A stretch of 34,715 bases of DNA from Candidatus Hydrogenedentota bacterium (GTDB lineage Bacteria > Hydrogenedentota > Hydrogenedentia > Hydrogenedentales > SLHB01), in contig JAIBAQ010000051.1 in the NCBI GenBank assembly GCA_019695095.1, positions 1-34,715 of the forward strand, given 5' to 3'. Of the stretch, positions 9,709 to 33,354 are shown piece by piece (the stretch's first letter is position 1; each line of letters begins with the position of its first letter). The notes below the pieces were generated by a model. That model saw only the letters and a program-made list of their open reading frames with translations. It made no database searches and was not told the origin of the DNA. Made by a program: the position numbers and the translations under genes.

Positions 9709-10665
9709 CTACTCCACAACCACGATGCCGTCTTTGCGTAACGTTCCCACAAACTCCTGTTTCGAATCGGGATTAAGGCAGGTCAGTACTTCGCCGGCCC
9801 CTGCATTTCCGAGGGCGACTGCGCGCGACCGGATGAGCAATCCACCTGCCCGCGTTTCCACCGTGACCGCCTGATTCCGCTTTACCAGTTGCGGCGGCAC
9901 CACTTGCCGCGGCGAGATGACCTGCCCCGCAAAGATGGTGCTCCGTGCCGTATTTCCTACCAAGTCCTCCAACTCCGTCACATAGCTGCCAGTACGTAGA
10001 TTCGCCAAGGAACGCTTTTCCACTTGCACGTCGGAGGGAGTAATCAGTTTCCCCCGAGGGATGTCCATCGTGGTCACCAGCACGTCTGCCAGTGCATCTA
10101 CTTTGGCCTTCATGGTGATGCTGCGCTTCACGTCGCCGTCCACACGGATCTCACCGCGAAAGACGGTCGGCCCAATCCAACGGTACTGGGGTTGAGGCGA
10201 CCACTTGATGGACAGTTCACCTTCGGGGACGACGATGCTTTGCGCCTGATGCTCGACCTCGATTTCCGTATCCTCGAGCTTCCAGGGCACCTTAGATTCA
10301 ATGAACGCAAACAGATCCTCTGCCAGGATGTCTTGGGTCAATTCCATCGAAAGCGTCTTTGCGACGACCGCATTGGCGCCGTCCAGCGTAATGTCGCTCG
10401 CCTGGACCCCCGCGCTCTCGATGCGCGTGCGCACGAGCGTCGCATCCAAACGCTTGGAGGCGCCCGGCGCAGCCGCTCCGCCCAACTCGATCTGCCCGAG
10501 AACCGGAGCATTCTCCCCTTTAATCTCCGCGACCTCGCCCAAGGTAACCATTGGGCCTTTTACGTAGGCCTCCGTCTTCAGCATGACGGTGTCGGCGGGT
10601 TCCGCCCACGCCGTCATGGGAAGGAGCGCGGCTACTGCGATTCCGAGAATCCGTGCGCGTCTCAT
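9709..10665 (-). CDS. flgA: Flagellar P-ring assembly chaperone FlgA
   Basis: A 318-aa periplasmic protein with a signal peptide (MRRARILGIAVAALLPMTAWA). The C-terminal half carries the SAF-like domain and ChapFlgA pattern: TTMDIPRGKLITPSDV, VGNTARSTIFAGQVI and VKRNQAVTVETRAGGLLIRSRAVAL. It helps FlgI assemble the P ring. It is longer than E. coli FlgA (219 aa) because of an extra N-terminal domain of about 100 residues. The start is ATG 10665 with AAGGAG upstream. It lies between flgG and flgH. Confidence 0.94.
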   Translation of the reverse strand: MRRARILGIAVAALLPMTAWAEPADTVMLKTEAYVKGPMVTLGEVAEIKGENAPVLGQIELGGAAAPGASKRLDATLVRTRIESAGVQASDITLDGANAVVAKTLSMELTQDILAEDLFAFIESKVPWKLEDTEIEVEHQAQSIVVPEGELSIKWSPQPQYRWIGPTVFRGEIRVDGDVKRSITMKAKVDALADVLVTTMDIPRGKLITPSDVQVEKRSLANLRTGSYVTELEDLVGNTARSTIFAGQVISPRQVVPPQLVKRNQAVTVETRAGGLLIRSRAVALGNAGAGEVLTCLNPDSKQEFVGTLRKDGIVVVE

Positions 10666-10687
10666 GTTCAGCTCCTTACCCTACCGC

Positions 10688-11479
10688 TTACCGTCTGACG
10701 TTATTGGCCGTCTGAAGCATTTCGTCGGAGGTCTGTATGACCTTCGAATTTGCCTCGTAGGCGCGCTGCGCAATGATCAGATTAAGAATCTCTTCCACGA
10801 CCTGAACGTTCGAGTTCTCCAAAAATTGTTGCTGCAGCGTACCAAGACCGTTTAGACCCGGCTGACCTGCCACGGGTGGGCCCGAAGCTTCGGTCTCCTG
10901 AAAGACATTCTTGCCGAGACTCGCGTCGAGGCCTGCATTGTTGATGAACCGCACCAACTGTATGGTCCCAAGGTTCGAAGGTGTCGCGTTCCCCGGCACA
11001 GTGACCGAGACCACACCGTCTTGCCCGATGGAAATTTCCTCGAAGTCGTTCGGCACCGTGATTCCTGGCGTTAGCGGGAAACCGTCCGCCGTCACGAATA
11101 TGCCATTTGCGTTGATTCGGAAACTGCCGTCCCGTGTGTACCCCGTGGTGCCATCCGGCAATTCGACTTGAAAGAAACCATCCCCCTCGATAGCCATATC
11201 GAAGGGATTATTGGTCTGAATCAGATTTCCTTGTGAAAACGTCTTTGCAACCGTTACAGGCCGCACGCCGTGCCCGATGTGAATGCCTGCCGGGATGATT
11301 TCACCTGCCGCCGTCTGAGTACCGGCCGGCTTCACTGTTTCGTACAGCAAATCCTGAAAATTCACGCGGCTCTTCTTGAAACTTGTCGTATTGACGTTCG
11401 CGAGGTTGTTGGCAATCGTGTCAATGTTGGTCTGTTGCCCAACCATGCCCGTTGCCGCCGTGAACAGTGCGCGAATCAT
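10688..11479 (-). CDS. flgG: Flagellar distal rod protein FlgG
   Basis: A 263-aa rod protein. The N-terminal rod motif IDTIANNLANVNTTSFKKSR, the domain with NPFDMAIEGDGFFQVELPDG, and the C-terminal helix VVEEILNLIIAQRAYEANSK are hallmark features of FlgG. The C-terminal helix packs into the coiled-coil core of the rod. Start ATG 11479 with GGAG 8 nt upstream. It is 15 nt downstream of the flgF-like gene, so the two are tightly coupled. Confidence 0.96.
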   Translation of the reverse strand: MIRALFTAATGMVGQQTNIDTIANNLANVNTTSFKKSRVNFQDLLYETVKPAGTQTAAGEIIPAGIHIGHGVRPVTVAKTFSQGNLIQTNNPFDMAIEGDGFFQVELPDGTTGYTRDGSFRINANGIFVTADGFPLTPGITVPNDFEEISIGQDGVVSVTVPGNATPSNLGTIQLVRFINNAGLDASLGKNVFQETEASGPPVAGQPGLNGLGTLQQQFLENSNVQVVEEILNLIIAQRAYEANSKVIQTSDEMLQTANNVRR

Positions 11480-11494
11480 CCCCTTCGCTCCTTA

Positions 11495-12253
11495 TTAGGC
11501 CGGTGAACCCACGTCGTTGATGAGACGCCCTGCCGTCTCGTCAACCGCCGTAATGACTCTCTGGTTTGCCTCATAGGCCCTCAGACCAAGCATCATCTCT
11601 GCCATCTCGACGGGCGCCTGCACATTGGATGCCTCAAGCGAACCCGCTATCAGACGCGTCTCCGTCGCCGCCGTTGCTTGCGCGGCTACGGGTTCCGACG
11701 CAAAGAAAAGACTTCCACCTTCTTGTTCGAGCAGCCGAGGCTCCTGAAATTCCACGATGCGAATCTCTCCGACAAGCTGGCCATCCACAGTGACCGCGCC
11801 GGTGTCGTCTATCCGCACCTTGCCTTCGCCTACGTCGATTGCCCCGCCCCCGGCCGACTGAATCTTGTAGCCGTCCTGCGTTGCCAACTGGCCGTCCACA
11901 TCCACGATGAATGAGCCGTTGCGCGTGTAGCGTTCGCCACCGGGCGTCTCGACGCCAATGAACCCCGGCCCGGAAAGGGCAACGTTCAGTGGGTCGTCCG
12001 TGGTAAAAATCGGACCTGATTGCAGGTCGGTAAACGTGGCAAGTGTCTTGAGTCCGCCGCCGGGGCCGCGCTTCGAATTCAGTTGCGCCGCCGTGGCCGT
12101 TTCGCCCAGAAACAACTCCTTGAACCCCTGGGATATGGGGTTCTGACGCTTGAACCCCACCGTCGCCGAGTTGGCGATGTTATTGGCGATGACGTTATGA
12201 CGCTCTTCCAACGCCATCATGCCCGTCGCTGCCGCATACAGGCCTTGTATCAT
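11495..12253 (-). CDS. flgF: Flagellar proximal rod protein, FlgF-type
   Basis: A 252-aa paralogue of FlgG. It shares the N-terminal MIQGLYAAATGMMALEERHN, ANNIANSATVGFKRQ and the C-terminal MAEMMLGLRAYEANQRVI pattern. As the first gene before flgG it is assigned to FlgF, a rod component. The start ATG 12253 is preceded by GGGAGG. It is the first gene of the operon, about 155 nt downstream of the inferred sigma-54 transcription start. FlgF and FlgG are hard to separate by sequence alone; the order supports FlgF. Confidence 0.9.
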   Translation of the reverse strand: MIQGLYAAATGMMALEERHNVIANNIANSATVGFKRQNPISQGFKELFLGETATAAQLNSKRGPGGGLKTLATFTDLQSGPIFTTDDPLNVALSGPGFIGVETPGGERYTRNGSFIVDVDGQLATQDGYKIQSAGGGAIDVGEGKVRIDDTGAVTVDGQLVGEIRIVEFQEPRLLEQEGGSLFFASEPVAAQATAATETRLIAGSLEASNVQAPVEMAEMMLGLRAYEANQRVITAVDETAGRLINDVGSPA

Positions 12254-12663: not shown

Positions 12664-13245
12664 ATGTCAAACCCTGATGCGAAATCCCAGCTTCGGGCAC
12701 GCCTCCGCGCCATGCGTTCGGCGTTGTCACCCACCGAGGTCCAAACTCGCAGTGCGGCGGTCCATGCCAATCTCCTGCTTCAACCCGAGTTCTGGGCGGC
12801 CCCGATGCTTCTGACGTACGTTTCCATTGACAACGAGGTCGATACGCGCGCTCTCATAACCTCCGCGCTCGCGGAAGGCCGCCGGGTTGCCGTGCCTCGC
12901 CTGGGCACCCCCGGAGCCATGGACTGGGTTGAGATTTCGTCGCTGGAGTCACTGACCGAGGGCAAGTATGGCATTCCCGAACCAGTTCGGACCCTTCCCG
13001 CGACACGCGTGTCACGCGACAGCATCGTCCTTGTCCCAGGAGTTGCCTTCTCGCCGTCCGGTCACCGAATCGGTTTTGGGGGCGGGTATTTTGACCGATT
13101 CCTATCCGAATTCGGGGGCGTTTCCATCGGTCTGGCCTACGATTTTCTGGTGATGGACTCGTTGCCCACGGCGCCCCACGACCGGCGCGTCGTTATCCTC
13201 GTCTCGGAGACTTCCGCTTACCGAGCTGACGCGCTCTCATCCTGA
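12664..13245 (+). CDS. fthC: 5-formyltetrahydrofolate cyclo-ligase
   Basis: A 193-aa cytoplasmic enzyme (also called YgfA or Fau) that converts 5-formyl-THF to 5,10-methenyl-THF using ATP, feeding one-carbon metabolism. The family signature LVPGVAFSPSGHRIGFGGGY spans residues 123-142 and is followed by FDRF. The N-terminal helix KSQLRARLRAMRSALSP is typical. The start is ATG 12664 with GGAAAGGAA just upstream. Its 3' end overlaps the 3' end of convergent miaA by 28 bp. Confidence 0.94.
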   Translation: MSNPDAKSQLRARLRAMRSALSPTEVQTRSAAVHANLLLQPEFWAAPMLLTYVSIDNEVDTRALITSALAEGRRVAVPRLGTPGAMDWVEISSLESLTEGKYGIPEPVRTLPATRVSRDSIVLVPGVAFSPSGHRIGFGGGYFDRFLSEFGGVSIGLAYDFLVMDSLPTAPHDRRVVILVSETSAYRADALSS

Positions 13246-14153
13246 AGCAGCCGCAATGCCTGCTCCACGTGCGCCTCGGTAAACGAGCTACCCGTCACCG
13301 GCAACCAGTGAATACGATCGTCGGCCCGGAACCACGTCAACTGCCGCTTGGCGAATCGTCGCGTCTGCTGCTTGGTGGTCTCTATCGCTTCGGCCAACGT
13401 CTGTTTACCGTCTATATACGCTGCCATCTCCCGAAATCCTACCGATCGCAGACGTTCAACCTCTGAGCGGTATCCGCGTTCCAGGAGCGCCCGCACTTCC
13501 TCCACAAACCCCGCGGCCACCATTGCGTCGACACGCTCGTTGATTCGCCGGTAGAGCTCCTCGCGCGGAAAATCCAGTGCGACCAACACCGCAGAATAGG
13601 CGTGTGTTCGCTCACGGTGCTCGCGATGAAGCCGAGACATGGGCTGCCCCGTCAGCCTGTACACCTCCAGGGCCCGCACGATCCGCCGCAGATCGCCTGG
13701 AAGTATTATCGCGGCATACTCCGGGTCCACCGATTGCAGTTGTTCGTAGAGCGGCGCTCCCGACTCGGCCTCCCGATGCAACTCTTCTCGAATCGTATCG
13801 TCTTTCGGAGGTCCATCGAAAAGGCCGTCAATCAACGCATTGACATACAAGCCGGACCCACCGGCCACGACGGCAACCTTCCCACGCGCATTCAGCGTAT
13901 CGACCACCATCCGCGCCTGCCGCTGGAATTCGCCCGCAGAGAATTCGCAATCCGGTTCGAGCACTCCCACGAAATGGTGCTTCACCGCAGCAAGCTGCTC
14001 GGCGGTGGGGGCCGCTGTCCCGATTTCCATTCCGCGATACACCTGCATCGAATCGGCGGAGATAATCTCGGTGTTGAGGCGCCGGGCAACTTCAATCGCC
14101 AACGCCGTCTTGCCCGACCCGGTAGGTCCCACGACTGCCAGAATGGAAGTCAC
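13218..14153 (-). CDS. miaA: tRNA dimethylallyltransferase
   Basis: A 311-aa enzyme that adds a dimethylallyl group to A37 of tRNAs reading codons that begin with U. P-loop GPTGSGKT at residues 9-16, the substrate motif ADSMQVYRGMEIGTAAP at about 34-50, GGSGLYVNALIDGL and the C-terminal KRQLTWFR are all typical. The frame extends upstream to 14444, but the family start fits GTG 14153, which overlaps the mutL TGA (GTGA). The upstream extension is shadow sequence of mutL. It is co-transcribed with mutL; this pair is also linked in E. coli. Confidence 0.95.
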   Translation of the reverse strand: MTSILAVVGPTGSGKTALAIEVARRLNTEIISADSMQVYRGMEIGTAAPTAEQLAAVKHHFVGVLEPDCEFSAGEFQRQARMVVDTLNARGKVAVVAGGSGLYVNALIDGLFDGPPKDDTIREELHREAESGAPLYEQLQSVDPEYAAIILPGDLRRIVRALEVYRLTGQPMSRLHREHRERTHAYSAVLVALDFPREELYRRINERVDAMVAAGFVEEVRALLERGYRSEVERLRSVGFREMAAYIDGKQTLAEAIETTKQQTRRFAKRQLTWFRADDRIHWLPVTGSSFTEAHVEQALRLLQDESASAR

Positions 14154-16033
14154 TGCCGTCTCCGGAAGCTCTTCTCCATCTGCATTTGGGTCAATTCGGT
14201 GATGATTGGCCTTCCGTGGGGACACGTGTAGGGGGGGCGCATCCGCCGGAACCCTTCCAGCAGTTCTTTGCGTTCCTGCGGAGACAGCCGATCGCCTGCT
14301 TTCACGGAGCCTCGGCAGGCCTCCACGGTCAAGCGGAGCGCGTCCGAGATAAAGTCCTCGCGCGAGAACAAGTCCCCCTGCGCCAACTGGTCCAGCACGC
14401 GGAAGATTGCATCGGCAATCTTGGACTCCTGATACAGGTGACAAACCGCCGTCACCTGGAATGTCGTGCCGCCAAACGGCTCGATTTCGATCCCGATACG
14501 CGAGAAAAGCGGCAGATTCGTTTCGAGCAGCCGCGCATGCGACGGGGGAAGCTCCACCAGAATGGGCACGATCAACTGCTGCGCCTGGTAATCGTGGTCG
14601 GCAAGATCAGCGCGCAGACTGTCGTAGGTTAACCGCTCATGCAACGCGTGCTGGTCGATGATCAACAACCGGTCTTCTTCCGGCACCAGCAAGTACGTGT
14701 CGAAGAGTTGCATCGGAGCATCGTCCATGTGGCCGATAGGACGGTAGACGGCCATTGGCGCAACCCGATCCACGTGGTCCGACGTTGCCGGACCCGAACC
14801 CGCGAATTCGGTTTGCACCGGTTCTGTGTAGGCTTCAAGCGGATTCGCGGTCTCCACAAAACGTGCGGCTAGGATGGGCGGAGTCTCAAACATGGGCGGT
14901 ATAGAAGCACTTGCCGCTTCCGTACCGGCGAGCCTTGGGCTTGTCTCGCTTATGAGTGTCCGCATGACCGGTTCTTCGCGCACTGGAAACGACGGCGCGG
15001 GAGTCACCAGCGTCTCGCGTCCAACTTGGATGCGTTCCATACGGCGGCGGACTACGTCACGAATGGCTTCGCGCACCACGCGCTCCTCGCGGAAACGCAC
15101 TTCGCGCTTCGCGGGGTGGATGTTCACATCCACGTAGCGCGGATGCGACTCGACCATGACGATGCCCACCGGATACCGTCCAATCGTCAGCAGTCCGCGG
15201 TAGCCGTCTTCCAAGCCATACTGCAGCGAACGATTCACGATAGGACGCCGATTCAAGAAGAAGAACTGATGCGAACGCTGCGACCGCGTGAGTGCGGGCG
15301 TTCCCACCAACCCTCGGAATCGAAGTCCAGCCTGCTCTTCATCCAAGTCGATCAAATCGTTCAGGAAGTTGAGTCCCCAGATAAGGGCGACCCGTTCGCG
15401 CAGCGTCGCGCGCTCCGGGATGTCGAGCAGCGTCTTTTCGTTGTGCAACAGATGAAATCCGACGCCCACTTCCGCGAGCGCGTGCCGTTGCACGATATCG
15501 ATGCACAGACTCAGTTCGGTGGTGATCCCCTTCAGGAATTTCGCGCGTACGGGTGTGTTGAAGTAGAGCCGGTTCACGCTCACTCGCGTTCCCACGGGCG
15601 CGGCCACGTGGTCTACGTCGCGAAGGATTCCCCCTTCCACGCGCACCCGCGTCGCGGACTCATCGCGTTCGCGGCGCGTGACCATCTCGAATCGTGAAAC
15701 GGCCGCGATACTCGCCAGGGCCTCTCCACGGAACCCAAGCGTCAGAATGTTGTCCAGGTCCTCGGCTTTGCGGATCTTGCTTGTCGCGTGCCGTTCAATC
15801 GCCAGCAACGCATCCTGCTCGGACATTCCATGACCGTTATCGATGACCTCGATCGTCCTGCGCCCCGCAGCCACAAGCCGCACCTGAATCCGCGTCGCGC
15901 GGGCGTCCAGCGCGTTCTCAACAAGCTCTTTGACAACAGACGCGGGGCGTTCGACCACCTCGCCGGCTGCAATCTTGTTGGCCACGTTCTCGGGCAGTAC
16001 ACGGACTGCGGGTATGCTTGTTTTCGCGCTCAT
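14150..16033 (-). CDS. mutL: DNA mismatch repair protein MutL
   Basis: A 627-aa GHKL ATPase that links mismatch recognition by MutS to strand incision. N-terminal motifs: KELVENALDA (residues 35-44, catalytic E36), DNGHGM (65-70) and TLGFRGEAL (98-106). The C-terminal domain carries the endonuclease motifs DQHALHERLTYD, ACRGS and CPHGRP, so it is the nicking type found in bacteria without MutH. In the first motif the usual final Glu is Asp. The ATG at 16033 is preferred over the GTG at 16036; the site just upstream is a weak TTAGGTG. A repeat copy ends 4-5 nt before it. Followed by miaA. Confidence 0.95.
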   Translation of the reverse strand: MSAKTSIPAVRVLPENVANKIAAGEVVERPASVVKELVENALDARATRIQVRLVAAGRRTIEVIDNGHGMSEQDALLAIERHATSKIRKAEDLDNILTLGFRGEALASIAAVSRFEMVTRRERDESATRVRVEGGILRDVDHVAAPVGTRVSVNRLYFNTPVRAKFLKGITTELSLCIDIVQRHALAEVGVGFHLLHNEKTLLDIPERATLRERVALIWGLNFLNDLIDLDEEQAGLRFRGLVGTPALTRSQRSHQFFFLNRRPIVNRSLQYGLEDGYRGLLTIGRYPVGIVMVESHPRYVDVNIHPAKREVRFREERVVREAIRDVVRRRMERIQVGRETLVTPAPSFPVREEPVMRTLISETSPRLAGTEAASASIPPMFETPPILAARFVETANPLEAYTEPVQTEFAGSGPATSDHVDRVAPMAVYRPIGHMDDAPMQLFDTYLLVPEEDRLLIIDQHALHERLTYDSLRADLADHDYQAQQLIVPILVELPPSHARLLETNLPLFSRIGIEIEPFGGTTFQVTAVCHLYQESKIADAIFRVLDQLAQGDLFSREDFISDALRLTVEACRGSVKAGDRLSPQERKELLEGFRRMRPPYTCPHGRPIITELTQMQMEKSFRRRQ

Positions 16034-16037
16034 CACC

Positions 16038-16328: not shown

Positions 16329-16365
16329 CGAAGCAGGCCTGACACCCTGAGGCGGGCCTGCTTCG
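16329..16365 (-). terminator. Terminator-like hairpin after lipoprotein LP1
   Basis: A perfect 11-bp stem, CGAAGCAGGCC/GGCCTGCTTCG, 20 bp past the LP1 stop. On the minus strand it is followed by CTTATTTC, an incomplete U-tract, so it may end transcription less efficiently than the hairpins after LP2 and LP6. Confidence 0.55.
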
Positions 16366-16384: not shown

Positions 16385-16822
16385 CTAGATTTCGAACCGC
16401 ACGTCTCCGTAGATGGTCGAGCAGGCGGGAAGTCTGCGATTCCAGCTTAGACCCTGGTAATAGTCGATACAGACGTTGGTGGTCGTGATTTCGATCCCCT
16501 CATTTACTACGATGAGTTCGTTGTTGACGGCTTCACCGCAGAAGAGGAACTCGTCGACGATGTCAAACACACCCCGTACCATGTACGTACCCGGCGCAAA
16601 CCCTTTGATATCCTCAGACTGCCCGGATACCAGCACTGACGTCAGGTCATTTGGCCCCCATGACAGAGCGCCCTGATTCGCCACATTCACTTCTTTCAAG
16701 TCATACGACGTGAAGTTGTTGATACAGAACTGATACTGAAGCAGATTGCATCCTGCAAATACCGTAGCTACCGCCACGAGTATAACGGCAGCGAGGATTC
16801 CCCAACTGCGTGACCGTCTCAT
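16385..16822 (-). CDS. Tandem paralogous lipoprotein LP1
   Basis: A 145-aa predicted lipoprotein with signal segment and lipobox ending in FAGC, followed by the family start NLLQYQFCINN. Family blocks: SYDLKEVN; SWGPNDL; EDIKGF; GTYMVRGVFDI; ITTTNVCIDY; and the end IYGDVRFEI. Four cysteines follow the lipidated one (QFC, LFC, NVC, PAC). The start is ATG 16822 with AAAGGAG upstream; the frame extends further but without a better site. It is the most divergent in its loops (an inserted SWNRRL before the last Cys). Function unknown; it is probably anchored at a membrane facing the periplasm or cell surface. Confidence 0.85.
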   Translation of the reverse strand: MRRSRSWGILAAVILVAVATVFAGCNLLQYQFCINNFTSYDLKEVNVANQGALSWGPNDLTSVLVSGQSEDIKGFAPGTYMVRGVFDIVDEFLFCGEAVNNELIVVNEGIEITTTNVCIDYYQGLSWNRRLPACSTIYGDVRFEI

Positions 16823-16930
16823 GCCTGATCTCCTTTGATTCGTGCGGGCTTGCTTGACTGGTCTCCTTCCAGTATCGCACCGGAGCGCAGCAAGCTTCGT
16901 CGCTTCCATCAAGAAAAACCAACCCTCGGC

Positions 16931-16968
16931 AAGAAAAAAGCAGGCTCGTCGAGGTTTAACAAGCCTGC
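16931..16968 (-). terminator. Rho-independent terminator after lipoprotein LP2
   Basis: On the minus strand a GCAGGCT/AGCCTGC stem (16962-16968 and 16940-16946) is followed by TTTTTTCTT. It lies 24 bp past the LP2 stop and upstream of LP1, so LP1 needs its own promoter or read-through. Confidence 0.8.
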
Positions 16969-16991
16969 CCCCTATACCAATTACTTCAAGA

Positions 16992-17438
16992 CTAGATTAC
17001 GAATCGGACATCACCGTAAATCAAGGTGCACCCGCCAATAACAACGGCCTTACCCTGCAACAGAGTATCCTCTCTGTAATCGATGCAGACGTTCGTCGTC
17101 GTGATATCGATACCTTCGTTCACGACGATCAATTCATCGTTGATTACATCGTCGCAGAATTCGCTGGAATCAGCGACATCGAAAACTCCGCGAACCATGT
17201 ACGTTCCCGCCGCGAAACCTTTGATGTCCTCCGAGCCGCCAGGCGCAAGAACAGCGCTCAGATCGTTCGCCCCCCAGGAGTCAGCGCCCTGGTTTACAAT
17301 GTTCACGTCCGTGAGGTCAAACGAAGTAAGGTTGTTGATGCAGAACTGGTACTGAAGCAGATTGCACCCTGCCAATACCGTTGCGACCAACACAACGCAC
17401 ACACCCATTGCCAATCCAAACCGACGCACCACTCGCAT
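16992..17438 (-). CDS. Tandem paralogous lipoprotein LP2
   Basis: A 148-aa predicted lipoprotein: MRVVRRFGLAMG leader, lipobox LAGC, then the family pattern NLLQYQFCINNLTSFDL, SWGANDLS, PGGSEDIKGF, YMVRGVFDV, ITTTNVCIDY and IYGDVRFVI. All four mature-domain cysteines are present (QFC, EFC, NVC, GGC). The start is ATG 17438 with AAGGAGA 8 nt upstream; the upstream extension of the frame to 17510 is not needed. Its leader peptide is nearly identical to that of LP3, marking these two as a recent duplication. A TATAAT sits at about 17462, very close to the start. Function unknown. Confidence 0.86.
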   Translation of the reverse strand: MRVVRRFGLAMGVCVVLVATVLAGCNLLQYQFCINNLTSFDLTDVNIVNQGADSWGANDLSAVLAPGGSEDIKGFAAGTYMVRGVFDVADSSEFCDDVINDELIVVNEGIDITTTNVCIDYREDTLLQGKAVVIGGCTLIYGDVRFVI

Positions 17439-17593
17439 TACATGTCTCCTTCTTCCGCTTCTCATTATACGGGTATACAACGCCCCACTATTCGAGACTG
17501 AGCATACCACGTCATGACATACACTACAATCCGCCCCACCCTTAGACGCTCATGTGCGTCAACCCATGCATACTACCTGGTGTGGGGCGACTG

Positions 17594-17610
17594 ACCGGTC
17601 TTCAACCGGT
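17594..17610 (-). terminator. Weak hairpin after lipoprotein LP3
   Basis: ACCGGT-CTTCA-ACCGGT forms a 6-bp stem 14 bp past the LP3 stop. There is no U-tract, so it is at best a weak terminator or mRNA 3'-end structure. Confidence 0.25.
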
Positions 17611-17623
17611 TATTCGCTCGACG

Positions 17624-18067
17624 CTAGATTTCAAACCTGGCTGCGCCATAGATCGACGTGCAGACATCGGCCTTATCTTTGGACACAATGCCTTCGATCT
17701 CACGGTAATCGATACAGATATTCGTCGTCGTGATTTCAAGGCCTTCGTTCACGATGATCAACTCACCATTGATGACTTCGTGGCAGAGATTAGGCTCGCC
17801 CGCGATGTCAAACACGCCGCGAACCATGTACATGCCAGGCGAGAACCCTTTGATATCTTCCGAGCCGCCCGGCTCAATAACACCGGTCAGATCGTTTGAG
17901 CCCCAAGAGTCAGCGCTTTGAGTTGTAATGTTCACTTCCTTGAGGTCATACGGCGTCAAGTTGGTGACGCAGAACTGGTACTGAAGTAAGTTACACCCTG
18001 CCAATACCGTTACAACCAGCACAACGCACATACCCGCCAGCAATCCAAACCGACGCACTACTCGCAT
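17624..18067 (-). CDS. Tandem paralogous lipoprotein LP3
   Basis: A 147-aa predicted lipoprotein. The lipidated Cys is residue 25 (LAGC), and the other four cysteines are at 33 (QFC), 95 (NLC), 118 (NIC) and 136 (DVC). Conserved blocks are as in its paralogues: YDLKEVNI, SWGSNDL, PGGSEDIKGFSPG, YMVRGVFDI, EITTTNICIDY, IYGAARFEI. The start is ATG 18067 with AAGGAG upstream. The pattern of short strands with SWGxNDL and PGGS turns suggests a small beta-sandwich. Function unknown; the intergenic gap of 164 bp to LP4 suggests separate transcription. Confidence 0.86.
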   Translation of the reverse strand: MRVVRRFGLLAGMCVVLVVTVLAGCNLLQYQFCVTNLTPYDLKEVNITTQSADSWGSNDLTGVIEPGGSEDIKGFSPGMYMVRGVFDIAGEPNLCHEVINGELIIVNEGLEITTTNICIDYREIEGIVSKDKADVCTSIYGAARFEI

Positions 18068-18231
18068 TGCATTTCTCCTTTTTCATCTGCTCTACGTATT
18101 GACTCACCATTCTGCACAAAGCGACTGGGAATACTCAGCCTTCCCCTATCGCTCATCGTCCGGGCGCACTCAATCTCGGCAAGCAACTCACGACGGAGTG
18201 CGCCAGCTCAAACGACTTTCAGACTGATGAC

Positions 18232-18666
18232 TCAAATCTCGAACCGCGCGGCGCCGTAGATATCTACACAAACAGTGCTCTTTTTCTCTGGAACTTCTTC
18301 GTCGTAGTCGATGCAGATATTCGTCGTCGTGATCTCCAGACCGTCGTTCACAACGATGAACTCGTTGTTATAGACGTCTTCGCAGACATCCTCCTCATTC
18401 ACGATGTCAAATACGCCTCGCACCATATACATTCCCGGGGAAAAACCCTTGATGTCTACCGAACCGCCCGGCAGGAGCGTGCCAGAGAGATCGTTCGAAC
18501 CCCACGACGGCGCGCCTTGAGCCGCAATGTTCACTTCCTTGAGGTCGAATGACGTAAGGTTGTTGATGCAGAACTGATACTGTAGCAAGTTACATCCGAC
18601 CAATAGCGGCGTAACCGCCCCCATTGCCAGAATCGCCACCAACGCATAACGTGTGAACCTTTTCAT
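18232..18666 (-). CDS. Tandem paralogous lipoprotein LP4
   Basis: A 144-aa predicted lipoprotein: MKRFTRYALVAILAMG leader, lipobox LVGC, NLLQYQFCINNLTSFDL, SWGSNDLSG, PGGSVDIKGFSPG, YMVRGVFDI, ITTTNICIDY, IYGAARFEI. The four mature cysteines (QFC, DVC, NIC, TVC) are kept. The start is ATG 18666 with AAGGAG 7 nt upstream. A strong promoter lies about 90-115 bp upstream. Its C-terminal block is identical to that of LP3 but its leader differs, hinting at exchange between copies. Confidence 0.86.
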   Translation of the reverse strand: MKRFTRYALVAILAMGAVTPLLVGCNLLQYQFCINNLTSFDLKEVNIAAQGAPSWGSNDLSGTLLPGGSVDIKGFSPGMYMVRGVFDIVNEEDVCEDVYNNEFIVVNDGLEITTTNICIDYDEEVPEKKSTVCVDIYGAARFEI

Positions 18667-18753
18667 GGCACTGCTCCTTATGGTCTACGCCACATTCCTC
18701 TCCCGGATACGCTCAGTTGGATAAACGAACACAGATTCCCTACAGCACCTCAG

Positions 18754-18782
18754 ATCTTAGGGAGATCGGCTCAACTTGTCAA
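18754..18782 (-). promoter_or_regulatory. Sigma-70-like promoter of LP4
   Basis: On the minus strand TTGACA (18777-18782), a 17-nt spacer and TAAGAT (18754-18759) lie about 88 bp upstream of LP4. This is a consensus -35 with a good -10. Confidence 0.75.
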
Positions 18783-18836
18783 TTGCTATTCACTCGTTCC
18801 AAACAAGGATTGACTCAACCACGCGGACAGCAGATC

Positions 18837-18887
18837 AGCCCCTCGCATATGACGGAACCCCCCGCAACCAATCGGCTGCGAGGGGCT
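18837..18887 (-). terminator. Terminator-like hairpin after lipoprotein LP5
   Basis: A perfect 11-bp stem, AGCCCCTCGCA/TGCGAGGGGCT, encloses a 29-nt loop, 25 bp past the LP5 stop. There is no U-tract on the minus strand, so the function is uncertain. Confidence 0.4.
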
Positions 18888-18912
18888 CTACCAAAATATC
18901 TGCAATCAGGAC

Positions 18913-19356
18913 TTAAATTTCAAAACGGACTGCGCCATAAATCTCAACGCAATCGCCCGGAGCCTTGACGCCGTTCTGCACCACATACTGCTCGTTGTAG
19001 TCGATACAGACGTTTGTCGTCGTGATGTCGATGTTCGTATTTGTTACGATGTACTCGTCATTGATGACAGGTTCACATACCTGACTGTCGGCCACGTCGA
19101 ACACGCCGCGAACCATGTAGTCACCAGCCGAAAAACCCTTGATGTCTTGCGTCTGTCCAGGTCCAACAATTCCGGTCAAATCGTTCGAACCCCACGATCC
19201 CGCTCCCAGCGCCACAACATTCACCTCAATAAGATCGTAGGAACTCTGATTGTTCACACAAATCTGATAAGTGAGCAGATTGCAGCCCACCATAACCGGA
19301 GCCACAATGCCCACCGCAATGGACATCACAATCGCTGCCGTTTTCCACGTCCTCAT
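18913..19356 (-). CDS. Tandem paralogous lipoprotein LP5
   Basis: A 147-aa predicted lipoprotein: MRTWKTAAIVMSIAVG leader, lipobox MVGC, then NLLTYQICVNNQSSYDL, SWGSNDLTG, PGQTQDIKGFSAG, YMVRGVFDV, DITTTNVCIDY, IYGAVRFEI. All four mature-domain cysteines are present (QIC, QVC, NVC, GDC). It departs from the family in the second block (PGQTQ instead of PGGSE) and has a longer loop before the last Cys. The start is ATG 19356 with AGGAGG 5 nt upstream, and a TATAAT promoter lies about 70 bp upstream. Function unknown. Confidence 0.86.
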   Translation of the reverse strand: MRTWKTAAIVMSIAVGIVAPVMVGCNLLTYQICVNNQSSYDLIEVNVVALGAGSWGSNDLTGIVGPGQTQDIKGFSAGDYMVRGVFDVADSQVCEPVINDEYIVTNTNIDITTTNVCIDYNEQYVVQNGVKAPGDCVEIYGAVRFEI

Positions 19357-19423
19357 AGCCGCCTCCTATTCCTTGCTCTATCGCGTTCTCTAGACTCGAT
19401 ATACCCGTTCCAGCATCGGCACT

Positions 19424-19454
19424 ATTATACTCTCTCGGAGAACACACATTTCAA
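19424..19454 (-). promoter_or_regulatory. Sigma-70-like promoter of LP5
   Basis: On the minus strand a perfect TATAAT (19424-19429) is preceded by TTGAAA (19449-19454) with a long 19-nt spacer. It points to LP5, about 70 bp away. Confidence 0.55.
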
Positions 19455-19493
19455 GATGTCTCCGTCTTTTGGCCGTTTCGACCAATAGAACGT

Positions 19494-19532
19494 AAAAAAA
19501 CCGTCCCTTTTCGCTTACGCTCGAAGGGACGG
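19494..19532 (-). terminator. Rho-independent terminator after lipoprotein LP6
   Basis: On the minus strand a CCGTCCCTT/AAGGGACGG stem (9 bp) is followed by seven Ts (19494-19500). It lies about 30 bp past the LP6 stop and upstream of the LP5 promoter, isolating LP6 as its own transcription unit. Confidence 0.9.
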
Positions 19533-19563
19533 CCAAAGTACTCAGTCTCAGTGACGGGATCCG

Positions 19564-19998
19564 TTAGATGATGTAACGAACGTCGCCGTAAATGAAGGTG
19601 CATTCTTCTTCGGTGTCAACATCTTCGGAATAGTCGATCGCGACATTCGTCGTCGTAACTTCGATACCCGTGTTGTATACAAGGTATTCGTCGTTGTAGA
19701 TCGGTCCGCAGATCTCATCGTCTTCGGCATCGGCTACATCGAATACGCCACGAACCATGTATTCACCAGCCGCGAAACCCTTGATGTCTTCCGAACCACC
19801 AGGCGCAAGAATTGCCGACAGGTCGTTCGAACCCCACGATTGAGCGCCGTCCGCCGTGATGTTGACTTCCATCAGGTCGTACGAGGTCAGGTTGTTGATC
19901 TCGAACTGATACTGAAGAAGATTACAACCAACCATCACGGGCAATGCCACACTTACCAACACGGCCATCACTACAGCGAAGCGTTTCCAATTCGACAT
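19564..19998 (-). CDS. Tandem paralogous lipoprotein LP6 (lacks two cysteines)
   Basis: A 144-aa predicted lipoprotein: MSNWKRFAVVMAVLVS leader, lipobox MVGC, then NLLQYQFEINNLTSYDL, SWGSNDLSA, PGGSEDIKGFAAG, YMVRGVFDVAD, EVTTTNVAIDY, IYGDVRYII. Two of the four family cysteines are replaced (QFC to QFE, NVC to NVA) while the other two remain (EIC, EEC). The start is ATG 19998 with AAGGAGG upstream. It has its own extended -10 promoter and a strong terminator. It is richer in acidic residues than the others. Function unknown. Confidence 0.86.
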   Translation of the reverse strand: MSNWKRFAVVMAVLVSVALPVMVGCNLLQYQFEINNLTSYDLMEVNITADGAQSWGSNDLSAILAPGGSEDIKGFAAGEYMVRGVFDVADAEDDEICGPIYNDEYLVYNTGIEVTTTNVAIDYSEDVDTEEECTFIYGDVRYII

Positions 19999-20439: not shown

Positions 20440-23028
20440 TCAGTTATACACGAAATAGGCTGTAGCGTTACAGCTCTCATCCGCGCGAATCCGCACCCAA
20501 TGTGCGCTAAATCCGTCCGGGAACTTCAGGTAACGGTACGGCTTCTTGGCGCCAATGCGAAGCGTTTCATAAAGTTCCCAGTGTCCATCCCCCAGAAAAT
20601 CCACTTCGACACAGAATCGCACAGCCTTCTTGGAATCGTGCGCAAGGTGCAATACCTTCTTGTCGTAGCCCGTCATCAGGTACGGGTCGGATACTTCTCC
20701 GGCGCGAATCGGCGTGTTCCACCAGGGCCCTCCCCATCCACTTGGCTTGCCCATTTCCCACAAGTCGTCCAATGCCCCAAACCAGAACCCCGATTGCGGT
20801 TGGCCCTGGTCGTGGTCGATTTGGTCAGAAGCCATCACAAAGAATCCTCGCCACGCACAGAAGTCGGGAACAACCCGCAGATGCGTGCAAATGGGACGAA
20901 TCCCCCAGATGTCCCCCCCGTACGCAAATGGCGGCAACTCAAAGAACGTGCCGTGAACGTCCATCAAAAGGCGCTCCGTACTGGCATGCCGGATCCGCAT
21001 CCACTCCGTGTTCCAGGTGTGGTCCCAAGTCTGGCTGGACTTGGGCAGAAGGTATCGCTTCCATTCGCCCTTCACAAGAACACGGAGTATGACGCTCGAT
21101 TTTGTCCATCCGGTCGCGTAAAGCGTTTCGCCGCCATAGGACTCGCTGCCCCCGTTTCCACTAACTTCGACAAACGGGTTACGCTCCAGCACGGTCCATG
21201 TCCTGCCGTCCCATTCGGCAAGCCGGCCTGCGTCGCGTTCGCCCAGAAACTCCTTCTCGTCGTAGGTGTTATTTGCGACCACGACGCGTCCTTGTCCGGT
21301 GAAGGCCCCCTTGAAGTGCTGTTGTGCGCCAACCACCGTCAACTCGTCGCGCAAGTTGAACAGGAGCTTTGCCGATACGTCATACACGTCGACTTCCCAG
21401 AATTCGCCTTCCATGCCGAGAAAGTAGACTTTGTGCTTGGGATCGGTGAGATGCGCGACAGTAGCAGTCAGACGAAAGCCTTTCAGCGCCTCGACGGTCC
21501 TGACTTGCCCGTCCGCGTCGATTGCATAGGGACCGATGAATGCTTGCCCGCTAGGCCAGTGCACCATGCGATTCGCGTAGGTCCCCGTCACCGACGCAGG
21601 ATGCCGCCGCATCGTCATGTCCGCGTCGATTTCGTAAAGCCCAAGTCCCTCGCCCCGAATGTGTGCCACATATCCGACGGCCCACAACTTCCCGCCCCAC
21701 GGAATGATGGCCCCGATACCCGCCTCTGAATCGCTGCCCACTCCTTCAGCCATCACCGTCATATTTGGGTAAATGCCATCGACATGGGGCTGAATCGACG
21801 GAGGTTCTTGCGGAAGCTTCGCCCCCGTCTTCTCAAGATATTCGCGAAGTGCTCTCGCCAGCGAACGGCCGAAGGCGCGCGCGCTGTCCGCCGTCACAAC
21901 CTTTCCACCGGCGCTTGCGTAGGGGATTTCAATGGACGCACACAAGCGGGCCCCTGGAATGCCTTCGGCCCATCGCGCAAAACTCCGCCCCTGCGAAAAG
22001 TTGGAGCTCTTGTTCCACGCTGCTCCATGTGGAAGGTTGTCCGCCGCTTCGTACGGCAGCGGGCCCTTGTTCACGCGCTCCAGAATGGCCCCAAATGTTT
22101 GCTGCTCCATCCACATCGATTCGTTTTCGCTGCCGACTATATAGATGTCTTCGTTGTGTTCGCCGCGCAAATACGGACAATGCAGGTCAAGCGCGACTCG
22201 CAGTTTGCCGTCGGCCCAGTTGCGCAGCCGGGTCCGCAACGCCGCCACTTCAGGATGCACGCTGGGGCCGATATAATCGCGGTTGTGATCGTGCGGACGT
22301 CTGTTCTTGCCTTGGTCCCCATCCTCGACCCCGTCTTTGTCCACAAATGGAACCGCCAGAATCTCAACGTTTCGCCGAAACCAGTACCCGGTATCGTCAT
22401 CGGCTAACACGGCATCCAGAAGACCTTCCAAAGCGAAACTAGATGCGCTTTCGCACGCATGATGCCGCGCCGTGACCACAACGCGATAGGGCGCTTCGCC
22501 GTCGAGCCGTCCCGCTCGCAGAATCTCAACCCCGCGCCCTTTTGCACTCTTGCACAGAATCTCAGTCGAAATAGCATCGCTCTTATCATGCGCGGCGAGA
22601 AATGCCTGCAGGTTTGTTTCGACGTAGGGAATCGCAAAAGCGAATCGCGTTTCGCCGCTTTTGACGGGAAACGAGTACTGAAACGAAGTGCCGGCTACGC
22701 TACCGGCTCCCAACCACGACCACGTCTCTCCCCCGTCCGTGCTTACGGCAGGTCCGCGTACACCAATTGGATTCCGCTCGCCAAACTGAAACGTTAGGGT
22801 TCGCCCTGCAGCTCCATTCACGCGGAAATTCCAGTAAAACCACCAACCCTCCGTGTCGCGCAGGTCCGGGTTCAAATGGATCGTATCGCCATCAGACTTC
22901 TCGACAACGATATTGCCTCCGGGGAAGTCTGCGTCAATAGAGAGTGATTTGTCTTCTGCGGCCCAAGTAAGAGTACCCCCAACGAAAAGGATACAAACGG
23001 ACACCCATCGCTTCATGCGTCCAGGCAC
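20440..23028 (-). CDS. Secreted M14-family carboxypeptidase fused to a propeller-like domain
   Basis: An 862-aa protein with a signal peptide (to about residue 24). Residues 30-140 resemble the N-terminal beta domain of cytosolic-carboxypeptidase-type (M14D) enzymes (WWFYWNFRVNG; WSWLG). Residues 150-400 form the M14 zinc peptidase: H190-x-x-E193 (HHACE), N249-R250, H283 (DLH) and the catalytic E367 (SIEIPY). Residues 411-862 form a separate domain with repeated Gly/Trp strands (GKLWAVGYVAH; GLYEIDADM; VYFLGMEGEFWEVDVYD), propeller-like. Start GTG 23028 with GAGGAG upstream, better spaced than the ATG at 23016. It follows the FG-GAP gene by 52 bp. Substrate unknown. Confidence 0.82.
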   Translation of the reverse strand: MPGRMKRWVSVCILFVGGTLTWAAEDKSLSIDADFPGGNIVVEKSDGDTIHLNPDLRDTEGWWFYWNFRVNGAAGRTLTFQFGERNPIGVRGPAVSTDGGETWSWLGAGSVAGTSFQYSFPVKSGETRFAFAIPYVETNLQAFLAAHDKSDAISTEILCKSAKGRGVEILRAGRLDGEAPYRVVVTARHHACESASSFALEGLLDAVLADDDTGYWFRRNVEILAVPFVDKDGVEDGDQGKNRRPHDHNRDYIGPSVHPEVAALRTRLRNWADGKLRVALDLHCPYLRGEHNEDIYIVGSENESMWMEQQTFGAILERVNKGPLPYEAADNLPHGAAWNKSSNFSQGRSFARWAEGIPGARLCASIEIPYASAGGKVVTADSARAFGRSLARALREYLEKTGAKLPQEPPSIQPHVDGIYPNMTVMAEGVGSDSEAGIGAIIPWGGKLWAVGYVAHIRGEGLGLYEIDADMTMRRHPASVTGTYANRMVHWPSGQAFIGPYAIDADGQVRTVEALKGFRLTATVAHLTDPKHKVYFLGMEGEFWEVDVYDVSAKLLFNLRDELTVVGAQQHFKGAFTGQGRVVVANNTYDEKEFLGERDAGRLAEWDGRTWTVLERNPFVEVSGNGGSESYGGETLYATGWTKSSVILRVLVKGEWKRYLLPKSSQTWDHTWNTEWMRIRHASTERLLMDVHGTFFELPPFAYGGDIWGIRPICTHLRVVPDFCAWRGFFVMASDQIDHDQGQPQSGFWFGALDDLWEMGKPSGWGGPWWNTPIRAGEVSDPYLMTGYDKKVLHLAHDSKKAVRFCVEVDFLGDGHWELYETLRIGAKKPYRYLKFPDGFSAHWVRIRADESCNATAYFVYN

Positions 23029-30255: not shown

Positions 30256-30343
30256 CAAATCCACCATACTTTCCTTCTCCGCCGACGGACTTTGCGCCGG
30301 CGGTATTTGTTGTATGGGCTCGTTTGCCGCAGGAGACCCCCGC
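30256..30343 (+). promoter_or_regulatory. Leader block A before the first sugar-binding protein
   Basis: It contains AATCCACCATACTTTCC, a GC-rich hairpin near CCGCCGACGGACTTTGCGCC, and GCCGCAGGAGACCCCCGC just before the TTG start. Parts of the block recur before the second binding protein (ACCACCATACT at about 31867) and, almost entire, at 33696-33797. Confidence 0.65.
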
Positions 30344-31783
30344 TTGCGTAGAACCTATTTCATTTGGGCTTTAGGTGTGCTTGTTTGTGCCGCCGTGGCC
30401 ATGCTGCTGCGCCCCTCGGAAGCCGGGTCGCCGGAAGAGCGCCAAGCCATCGAAGAAGGCCGCACGATCATTGTGTATTGGGATCGGCACTCCGGTCACG
30501 AGCACGCCATGCGCGCCGAGCTCATCCGGGAGTACAACAACACCCAAGGCAAAACCGACGGTGTTTACGTGCGCGCGTTGCCCATTGGCTTCTTCGCCCT
30601 CATGGAAAAGATGCTCACTTCGATTGCCGGGGGGTCGCCGCCCGACGTCTGCAGTATCGACACCAGCATTCTGATGCAGCTTGCAACCCAGGGGTGCTTC
30701 ACGCCCTTGGGCGAATGGATGAAGACCGTCCCCGCCCTTCAAGAGGACCGGTTTCTGCGCCACACGTGGGAGATGGTCGCCTACGAAGGCTATGACGCCG
30801 CTCATCAGAACTGGGTCGACGACGTGTGGGGAATCCCCTCGACAACGGACTCTTATTGCCTTCTATGGAACAAGGACATCTTTCGCAGGGCTGGCCTTGA
30901 TCCCAATACGCCGCCGAAAACGACACAGGAACTCGAGGAGTTTGCCGCCAAGCTCACCATTCGCAACGGCGCGGAGGTCACTCAGATTGGGTTTATCCCA
31001 TGGTTTCCGTGGGACATTTCCCTGATGTGGGGCGGCATGTTCGGCGGCTCCTATTACGACCCGGAAACCGGACTTGCCACCTGCGGTTCCGACCCGGCCG
31101 TCATCGCGTCGCTCGCTTGGCAAGCCAAGTTCAGCATAGACCCAAACTCGGACAACAACGCGCCATTCGCGGTCGACGCGACCAAGTTTCAGTCGTTCGA
31201 GAAAATGGGCGCGTATCAAAGCGCCAACAACCCCTTCTACGCCGGGAAGGTCGCTATGATCGTGGAGGGTGAATGGCAAGCCACCTTCATCCCCCAATAC
31301 GCAAAGCACCTCGATTGGGGCGTCGCGCCGATTCCGCAACCCGAAGGCGCGCCCCCACGCGCATACGGTCCCGCGTGCGTCTGCGACTCCGTCCCCGCGA
31401 GCGCCAAGCACAAGGAAGAAGCCTTCAAGTTCCTGAAGTGGTTCTACTCGCCGCGCCCTGGTGGCGGTTTCTCTCCCATCAGCGACTACAACTTCGCGAT
31501 TCACAACATCCCATGCATCCGCGAAGAAGCCATGCAGGACCGGTTCATGAAGGACCCCAAATTCAGCGTCTTCGTCAACGAACTCCTCACCAAGCCCGAA
31601 ATCGTCTCTCAACCCAACCTTCCGCAATCGCAGTTCTATCTCGACGAAATCGAACGCGGCCGCGAATTTGTCACCATGCACGAAAAGACCCCCGAGCAGT
31701 CGGCTAAAGACACCGAAACCCGCACAAACGAAGTGCTCGAAGACACCTACCGGCAAATGAAGGTGTTGAAGAAGGCAGATTAG
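30344..31783 (+). CDS. ABC transporter sugar-binding protein (family 1), membrane-anchored, copy 1
   Basis: A 479-aa extracellular solute-binding protein. Residues 5-22 form a signal or anchor helix (FIWALGVLVCAAVAMLL) without a lipobox. Then IIVYWDRHSGHEHAMRAELI and the SBP family 1 pattern: SPPDVCSIDTSILMQLATQG, VWGIPSTTDSYCLLWNKDIF, YAGKVAMIVEGEWQ and AFKFLKWFYSP. The start is TTG 30344 with AGGAG 8 nt upstream, which matches the position of the GTG start of copy 2; the ATG at 30314 lies in leader block A. The permease at the window end is its probable partner. Sugar specificity is not known. Confidence 0.85.
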   Translation: MRRTYFIWALGVLVCAAVAMLLRPSEAGSPEERQAIEEGRTIIVYWDRHSGHEHAMRAELIREYNNTQGKTDGVYVRALPIGFFALMEKMLTSIAGGSPPDVCSIDTSILMQLATQGCFTPLGEWMKTVPALQEDRFLRHTWEMVAYEGYDAAHQNWVDDVWGIPSTTDSYCLLWNKDIFRRAGLDPNTPPKTTQELEEFAAKLTIRNGAEVTQIGFIPWFPWDISLMWGGMFGGSYYDPETGLATCGSDPAVIASLAWQAKFSIDPNSDNNAPFAVDATKFQSFEKMGAYQSANNPFYAGKVAMIVEGEWQATFIPQYAKHLDWGVAPIPQPEGAPPRAYGPACVCDSVPASAKHKEEAFKFLKWFYSPRPGGGFSPISDYNFAIHNIPCIREEAMQDRFMKDPKFSVFVNELLTKPEIVSQPNLPQSQFYLDEIERGREFVTMHEKTPEQSAKDTETRTNEVLEDTYRQMKVLKKAD

Positions 31784-31824
31784 CCCACAAAGCAATCCCA
31801 TAGACTAAATTGGGCTCCTTGGAA

Positions 31825-31849
31825 CCAGTGGGCTCCTTTCGCTCACTGG
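31825..31849 (+). terminator. Hairpin between the two binding-protein genes
   Basis: CCAGTGGGC/GCTCACTGG, a 9-bp stem with one G-U pair and a 7-nt loop, lies 42 bp past the first binding-protein stop. With no U-tract it is more likely an mRNA processing or stability element that separates the expression of the two paralogues than a full terminator. Confidence 0.4.
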
Positions 31850-31917
31850 AATCTGTCCTCCCAGAACCACCATACTCATTGTCCGCACAAGTATTGCCGT
31901 TCCGGGGGGACTTTCAC

Positions 31918-33354
31918 GTGCGAAAGACCTATGCCATTTGGGTGCTGGGTGCCATGCTCTGTCTGGGCATCATCGCTATTCTGCGCCCATCTGAAGCCGG
32001 CTCCCCGGAGGAACGCGCCGCACTCAATCAAGGCCGCACGGTAATCGTGTACTGGGATCGTCACTACGGACACGAGCACGCCATGCGCGCGAAGCTTATC
32101 GAGGAGTACAACACCACCCAAGGCATCGCCGACGGCGTCTATGTGCGCGCGCTCCCCATCGGCAACTCCGCGATTATGGAGAAACTGCTCACCGCCGTAG
32201 CCAGCGGTTCTCCGCCAGATGCGTGCAGCATCGACTCAGGCATTCTCATGCAGTTGGCCACCCAGGGGTGTTTCACGTCGCTCAGCGACTACGCAGACTC
32301 CATTCCCGCGCTGAAACAGGACCGCTTTCTTCCACACACCTGGGCCATGGTCTCTTTTGAGGGCTACAACTCCAATCGCCGCGCCTGGGTCGATGGCGTC
32401 TGGGGAATCCCCACCACCACCGAGGCCTACTGCCTGCTGTGGAACAAGGACGCCTTTCGCCGCGCTGGACTCGACCCCGAGCGTCCTCCAAGAACCATCC
32501 GCGAACTGGAGGAATACGCCGCCAGACTCACTATCCGCGAGGGTTCCGAGACTAAGCAGGTCGGTTTCGTGCCGTGGTTCCCGTGGGACATGACCCTCAT
32601 GTGGGGCGGCCTGTTTGGCGGCACGTGGTACGACTCCAAGACCGGATATGCGACCTGCGCGAGTGACTCCAGTATCGTGGCGTCGCTCGCGTGGCAAGGC
32701 ACATTCAGCGAGACCCCCAACTCCGCCACCAATGCCCCCTACGCCCTCGATTCCAGCAAGTTCCAGTCCTTCGAGAAGATGGGCGCGTACCAAAGCGCCA
32801 ACAACCCCTTCTACGCGGGCAAAGTCGCCATGATCATCGAGGGTGAATGGCAAGTCACCTTCATCGAGAAATACGCCAGCCACCTCGATTGGGGCGTCGC
32901 GCCCATTCCTCAACCCGAAGACGCCCCGCCACGCGCCTACGGTCCCGCGTGCATCTGCGACGCCGTGCCCTCAAGCGCCAAACACAAAGACGAAGCCTTC
33001 AAGTTCCTGCGTTGGTTCTACGCGCCACGCTCAGAAACAGCCACATCGCCCTGCAGCGATTTCAACTACACCATCCACAACATCCCCTGCACCCGCGAGG
33101 AGGCCCTGCAAGACCGCTTCATGAAAGACCCCAAATTCAGCGTCTTCGTTAACGAACTCCTCACCAAACCCGAAATCGTCACCCACCCGCTGCTCCCCCA
33201 GCCTCAACTCTTCCTCGACGAAATCGAACGCGCCCGCGAATTCGTCATCCTCCACGAAAAGTCCCCCGAACAAGCCGCCCAGGAAATCGAGACCCGAACC
33301 AACGAAGTGCTCGGCGATACATACAGGCAAATGAAGAAGTTGACGCCAGAATAG
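31918..33354 (+). CDS. ABC transporter sugar-binding protein (family 1), membrane-anchored, copy 2
   Basis: A 478-aa paralogue of the preceding gene. Identity by eye is high along its whole length, including YQSANNPFYAGKVAMI and ELLTKPEIV. It has an anchor helix (YAIWVLGAMLCLGIIAIL) and no lipobox. The start GTG 31918 has GGGGGG 8 nt upstream and aligns with the start of copy 1; the frame opens earlier (31810) but only in the leader. Differences cluster in loops, compatible with different ligands. The stop TAG is followed by TCCGG, the sequence seen at other repeat-linked stops. Confidence 0.85.
   Translation: MRKTYAIWVLGAMLCLGIIAILRPSEAGSPEERAALNQGRTVIVYWDRHYGHEHAMRAKLIEEYNTTQGIADGVYVRALPIGNSAIMEKLLTAVASGSPPDACSIDSGILMQLATQGCFTSLSDYADSIPALKQDRFLPHTWAMVSFEGYNSNRRAWVDGVWGIPTTTEAYCLLWNKDAFRRAGLDPERPPRTIRELEEYAARLTIREGSETKQVGFVPWFPWDMTLMWGGLFGGTWYDSKTGYATCASDSSIVASLAWQGTFSETPNSATNAPYALDSSKFQSFEKMGAYQSANNPFYAGKVAMIIEGEWQVTFIEKYASHLDWGVAPIPQPEDAPPRAYGPACICDAVPSSAKHKDEAFKFLRWFYAPRSETATSPCSDFNYTIHNIPCTREEALQDRFMKDPKFSVFVNELLTKPEIVTHPLLPQPQLFLDEIERAREFVILHEKSPEQAAQEIETRTNEVLGDTYRQMKKLTPE

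Follow-up and report, generated by a model that had tools for sequence, protein, structure and literature searches.

Positions 16385-19998 of the window (the whole 34,715-nucleotide stretch of Candidatus Hydrogenedentota DNA that was analysed) hold a head-to-tail run of six minus-strand lipoprotein genes, whose products, here LP1-LP6, are divergent members of a widespread six-strand beta-sandwich family with the motif YISPsS..WG.D.LG (the WG domain). The genes are paralogous, have been kept under purifying selection and occupy a conserved locus, and a sandwich fold is predicted for their products. We interpret the array, with moderate confidence, as an old, lineage-specific tandem expansion of envelope-anchored binding modules that would share a scaffold and differ in their loops; the binding role is suggested by analogy with other sandwich domains.

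Organization of the lipoprotein array

The array consists of six intact open reading frames of 144-148 codons:

16385..16822, minus strand: LP1, lipoprotein of 145 aa, adjoining mutL
16992..17438, minus strand: LP2, lipoprotein of 148 aa, nearest copy LP3 (dS 0.73)
17624..18067, minus strand: LP3, lipoprotein of 147 aa, AlphaFold2 mean pLDDT 82.6
18232..18666, minus strand: LP4, lipoprotein of 144 aa
18913..19356, minus strand: LP5, lipoprotein of 147 aa
19564..19998, minus strand: LP6, lipoprotein of 144 aa, without equivalents of C33 and C118

These frames and their leaders confirm an earlier account of six tandem paralogous lipoproteins on one strand, each with a lipobox. A Shine-Dalgarno (GGAG-type) site precedes the ATG of every LP, and all six products have a signal peptide and a lipobox of the form [F/L/M][A/V]GC-N, with the mature protein, as read from the sequence, starting at Cys-Asn. 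Identity to LP3, taken as the reference, is 52-69% among the copies, 52 columns are invariant, and no seventh copy was found at E below 1 in the 6.77 Mb draft genome, a MAG. The shared blocks quoted in the preliminary description do exist in the array, but several vary between copies: the start block is NLLTYQICVNN in LP5 and NLLQYQFEINN in LP6, SWGSNDL has one variable position, EDIKGF becomes VDIKGF in LP4 and QDIKGF in LP5, and ITTTNVCIDY reads VTTTNVAIDY in LP6. YMVRGVFD and TTTN are invariant across the six.

Candidate termination signals are located at the 3′ ends of several of the genes:

19499..19534, minus strand: intrinsic terminator after LP6, an 11-pair hairpin followed by a T-run; convincing
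16935..16973, minus strand: intrinsic terminator after LP2, GCAGGCTTGT...ACGAGCCTGC followed by TTTTTT; convincing
16329..16365, minus strand: probable terminator after LP1, GAAGCAGGCC...GGCCTGCTTC, with a weak T-run
18850..18893, minus strand: very strong hairpin after LP5 (z -4.67), T-run absent

The canonical hairpins and T-runs after LP6 and LP2 bear out the claim of two clear terminators; none that is convincing was found 3′ of LP3 or LP4, and in a related genome, G009, a GC-rich hairpin and T-run follow all three lipoprotein copies. Three sigma-70-like sites are present in the array region, where shuffled sequences lead one to expect 3.5 +/- 2.2; because the count is at chance level, promoter matches were dropped as evidence for the promoters formerly assigned to three of the genes. 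The proposal that the genes are separate transcription units survives in part: the terminators, which serve two or three genes, make separate units likely for part of the array, but LP4, LP3 and LP2 could share one common transcript. No RNA element was found with Rfam between positions 12000 and 24500.

Relationship to a wider domain family

Searches of Pfam, NCBIfam, PHROGs and PADLOC with the LPs gave sub-threshold matches only, and a profile search of PDB sequences found nothing; in these database profile searches, no characterised family claims the LPs. None of the papers searched names both Hydrogenedentota and lipoprotein. A first scan of genome contigs with A1 gave no relative. Within the same phylum, iterated profile searches recovered single lipoproteins and fused proteins with the motif N..T..I.E.YI...A..WG.N.L...L.PG......G.YD.RA, and further profile searches reached other phyla, where the pattern is IVND..GYDIYYVYISPsSsd.WG.DrLG...L.PG.s..f.v..G.YDI...DEDGDTY.

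Because the profiles used in those searches contained the LPs, the link was tested independently by hhalign, aligning the six LPs with ten domains that include no LP and of which nine are from other phyla. The alignment has a probability of 94.8% (E 5.5e-8, 51 columns, score 46.9), with a set of sequences whose choice was not wholly blind since the ten had first been reached via LP-containing profiles. Removal of the one Hydrogenedentota row leaves 90% (E 1.6e-6). As controls, reversing the alignment lowers the probability to 0.1%, and the best score in 30 column shuffles is 18.0 versus 46.9. The earlier label of an unrecognised family is thus apt insofar as the LPs are absent from Pfam, NCBIfam, PHROGs and PADLOC, but they are not isolated and join this wider family. 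The wider WG domain is itself absent from Pfam and, for three members scanned, from NCBIfam; members such as WP_315962769.1 (Pseudomonas plasmid NZ_CP135972.1) are annotated as hypothetical protein.

The LPs and the wider domain share the motif order N..T..I..VYIS....WG.N.L...L.PG......G.YD.R, and both are secreted as judged from sequence, with leader and lipobox in the six LPs and signal peptides in other members. The LPs differ in having a seventh strand and two cysteine pairs, in YM for YD, and in being without the acidic DEDGDTY segment. Tandem arrays have formed elsewhere in the family too: a genome of another phylum (G481; L212 1846-4873) encodes five tandem small secreted WG-domain proteins on one strand, without lipobox, and since this array is its own, tandem expansion of the domain has occurred more than once. 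In one other genus, 18 of 19 genomes contain the domain, and each of the proteins read has two or three repeats of it. Searches by tblastn gave no match for two domain members against plasmids and one against phages, and a third domain query matched two plasmid records. A standalone member on a Pseudomonas plasmid (L211 1384-1770), annotated as a hypothetical protein, lies between a Calx-beta protein gene and a chemoreceptor gene.

Within Hydrogenedentota, and with Pfam run on one representative per kind of fusion partner, the WG domain is N-terminal to a C11 peptidase (L068), PGAP1-like esterases (L065-L067, L078), CotH (L072) and CAP (L017), and C-terminal to PKD (L069, L079). The N-terminal fusions in the same phylum would suit a standalone domain that acts as an inhibitor or chaperone, controlling extracellular hydrolases like those to which it is fused elsewhere. 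We consider this unlikely, as no such enzyme lies consistently beside the array and the carboxypeptidase-like gene at 20440-23028 is absent from the locus in relatives.

A conserved locus upstream of mutL

The genes of the window that bear on the location of the array are as follows:

14150..16036, minus strand: mutL, with the array directly upstream here and in G009 and G021
13218..14444, minus strand: miaA (IPP transferase), which also lies downstream of mutL in those relatives that were inspected
30314..33354, plus strand: a pair of neighbouring paralogues that encode sugar-ABC substrate-binding proteins

The MutL of the window is 60-75% identical to that of Candidatus Hydrogenedentota MAGs, and below 45% to all else. 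G009 and G021, from another genus within the same family, have three related lipoproteins directly upstream of mutL-miaA and oriented alike. The single lipoprotein gene of G014 is located at the end of a contig and is divergent from a sugar-ABC transporter/inositol-monophosphatase-like cluster; in L089 that same cluster and mutL are divergent, with no lipoprotein gene between them, and in L093 the cluster lies near mutL. Each of the two substrate-binding protein genes of the window is about 52-54% identical to the homologue beside the G014 lipoprotein gene. A lipoprotein gene was therefore probably present in the vicinity of mutL and the ABC genes before these genera diverged. The copy count in related genomes, one in G014 and three each in G009 and G021, compared with six here, suggests that copy number probably changed after that split. 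The preliminary description missed this conservation of the locus at mutL, as well as the relatives of the domain in other phyla.

The scan of neighbours, which covered part of the window genes, identified mutL, miaA, flagellar and peptidase-like genes. The only consistent companions of the array are mutL/miaA and, at a greater distance, the ABC genes, so that no partner can be named. Adjoining the array at 20440-23028 is a gene for an 862 aa protein with a sub-threshold match to an M14 carboxypeptidase N-domain; this carboxypeptidase-like neighbour was dropped as a partner because it is absent from the locus in relatives. The window also contains a 721 aa open reading frame without a Pfam match (26230-28395) and, downstream of miaA, flagellar rod and flgA-like genes (9709-12253).

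Age and divergence of the copies

In all LP pairs with usable dS, dN is well below dS, which excludes chance and places all six genes under purifying selection. Except for LP2/LP3, dS between copies is high or saturated; with dS far above dN, the copies are old and have been retained under that selection. LP2/LP3 has the lowest dS of all pairs (dN 0.18, dS 0.73) and 77% nucleotide identity, and the likeness runs across the whole gene, which fits a more recent duplication. A tree places all six LPs together to one side of a branch (98/99), and between G009 and G021 a single pair is clearly orthologous; the grouping indicates either that the array expanded after the genera had separated or that its copies were homogenised very long ago.

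Gene conversion between copies, as had been suggested, is not supported. In a permutation test over 273 polymorphic sites, one of 15 pairs falls below 0.01, a single 20 nt tract with p 0.0035 that becomes about 0.05 once corrected and is within chance, and LP2 and LP3 are alike over their full length. These data bear on the idea that the array is a surface-variation repertoire, in which alternative forms are recombined or switched in response to phages, predators or grazers. Tandem lipoprotein arrays with variable segments do occur elsewhere, for example the S. aureus lpl genes, paralogues in tandem whose lipoprotein products combine conserved with variable segments and whose copy number differs by lineage (PMC4470592). 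The LP array shares that general organization, but the organisms are of a different kind, Pfam-A scans of the LPs gave no match to the staphylococcal lpl family model, and gene shuffling has been proposed for lpl and none is seen in the LPs. With the divergence between copies old and an outer-face location of the LPs only putative, we rate surface variation as quite improbable.

Variable loops and cysteine pairs

Variation in the mature part is concentrated mainly in residues 88-100 and 122-138, two loops that contain all of the gaps. Columns with at least four residue types number 4 of 15 in the first of these segments and 11 of 20 in the second, compared with 4 of 62 in residues 26-87 and 0 of 30 in residues 101-121 and 139-147 together. 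This loop variability may represent relaxed constraint, not diversification, a reading left possible because dS is saturated.

C95 and C136 are invariant in the LPs, one in each variable loop, and from the co-occurrence of the cysteines a disulfide between them probably ties the two loops together. C33 and C118 are present in LP1-LP5 and in the G009 and G021 copies and are both missing from LP6, the pattern expected of a putative second disulfide that was lost as a pair.

Another possibility is that the LPs are redundant copies of an abundant envelope or matrix lipoprotein that do the same structural job, the array mainly raising dosage. The highly conserved core (with YMVRGVFD and TTTN unchanged), purifying selection at a single locus, and the near-identical cores of copies a and b in G009 agree with it, but the two loops differ in both length and sequence, a cysteine pair is lost in LP6, and purely redundant paralogues as old as the saturated dS implies would be expected to have been lost. 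We regard redundancy as possible, with less confidence than the binding-module interpretation.

Predicted structure

The AlphaFold2 model of LP3 is a seven-strand sandwich (mean pLDDT 82.6, with the mature domain mostly about 80-94), in agreement with the earlier impression of a small beta-sandwich fold. The wider WG domain is modelled with six strands (pLDDT 95.4), and as the order of these six is identical in both models, the LPs add one strand at the C-terminus. PDB neighbours common to both models are the HGSNAT luminal domain, AlgF, 2mca (a Eubacterium NMR structure) and domain 4 of cholesterol-dependent cytolysins, with structural Z of about 8 to 10 for LP3 and 7.4 to 8.3 for the wider domain. 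Matches at Z of 8-10 are general sandwich matches, reflecting a common fold in the predicted models and no proof of function.

AlgF of P. aeruginosa (6czt, 6d10) has a sandwich similar to LP3, with Z of 8.8 over 88 residues and 8.2 over 81, and no AlgF chain appeared in the profile search of PDB sequences. A published study argues that AlgF mediates protein-protein contacts and counts PepT2, pneumolysin and transthyretin among its structural neighbours (PMC10641220), a list that overlaps that of the LPs. AlgF is built of two sandwich domains whereas each LP has one, and it acts in alginate acetylation. A location within an alginate biosynthesis cluster is a further mark of AlgF; the scanned neighbours of the LP genes are the mutL, miaA, flagellar and peptidase-like genes named above. 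Transthyretin-like sandwiches are alike in overall fold, at a Z of about 7.8 across 94-99 residues that is tied with many other sandwiches, and have no sequence match to the LPs.

Proposed function

We propose that each LP is made with a signal peptide, exported by Sec and lipidated (Lgt/LspA) at the lipobox read from its sequence. The mature product would begin with a lipidated Cys and an Asn and comprise a single domain of about 120 residues. This domain is predicted to be a six-strand WG beta-sandwich with an extra C-terminal strand, and it would presumably be anchored in the outer membrane. By analogy with AlgF and the PepT extracellular domain, its loop face may bind a partner protein or glycan, and the copies would divide the labour, with a common scaffold and a different loop face and possibly different expression. 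A stronger form of the proposal, in which the array is a recognition repertoire and the disulfide-tied variable loops give each copy its own extracellular ligand, is in keeping with the domain having expanded in tandem several times (six copies here, three in the sister genus, five in another phylum); we view it as doubtful.

The WG domain is recurrent across several bacterial phyla and precedes secreted enzymes of several types, yet is missed by current protein-family libraries. Giving it a name would allow annotation of many hypothetical exported proteins. The array described here offers naturally occurring variants of a single scaffold, differing in their loops and in one cysteine pair, that could be used to find what the domain binds.
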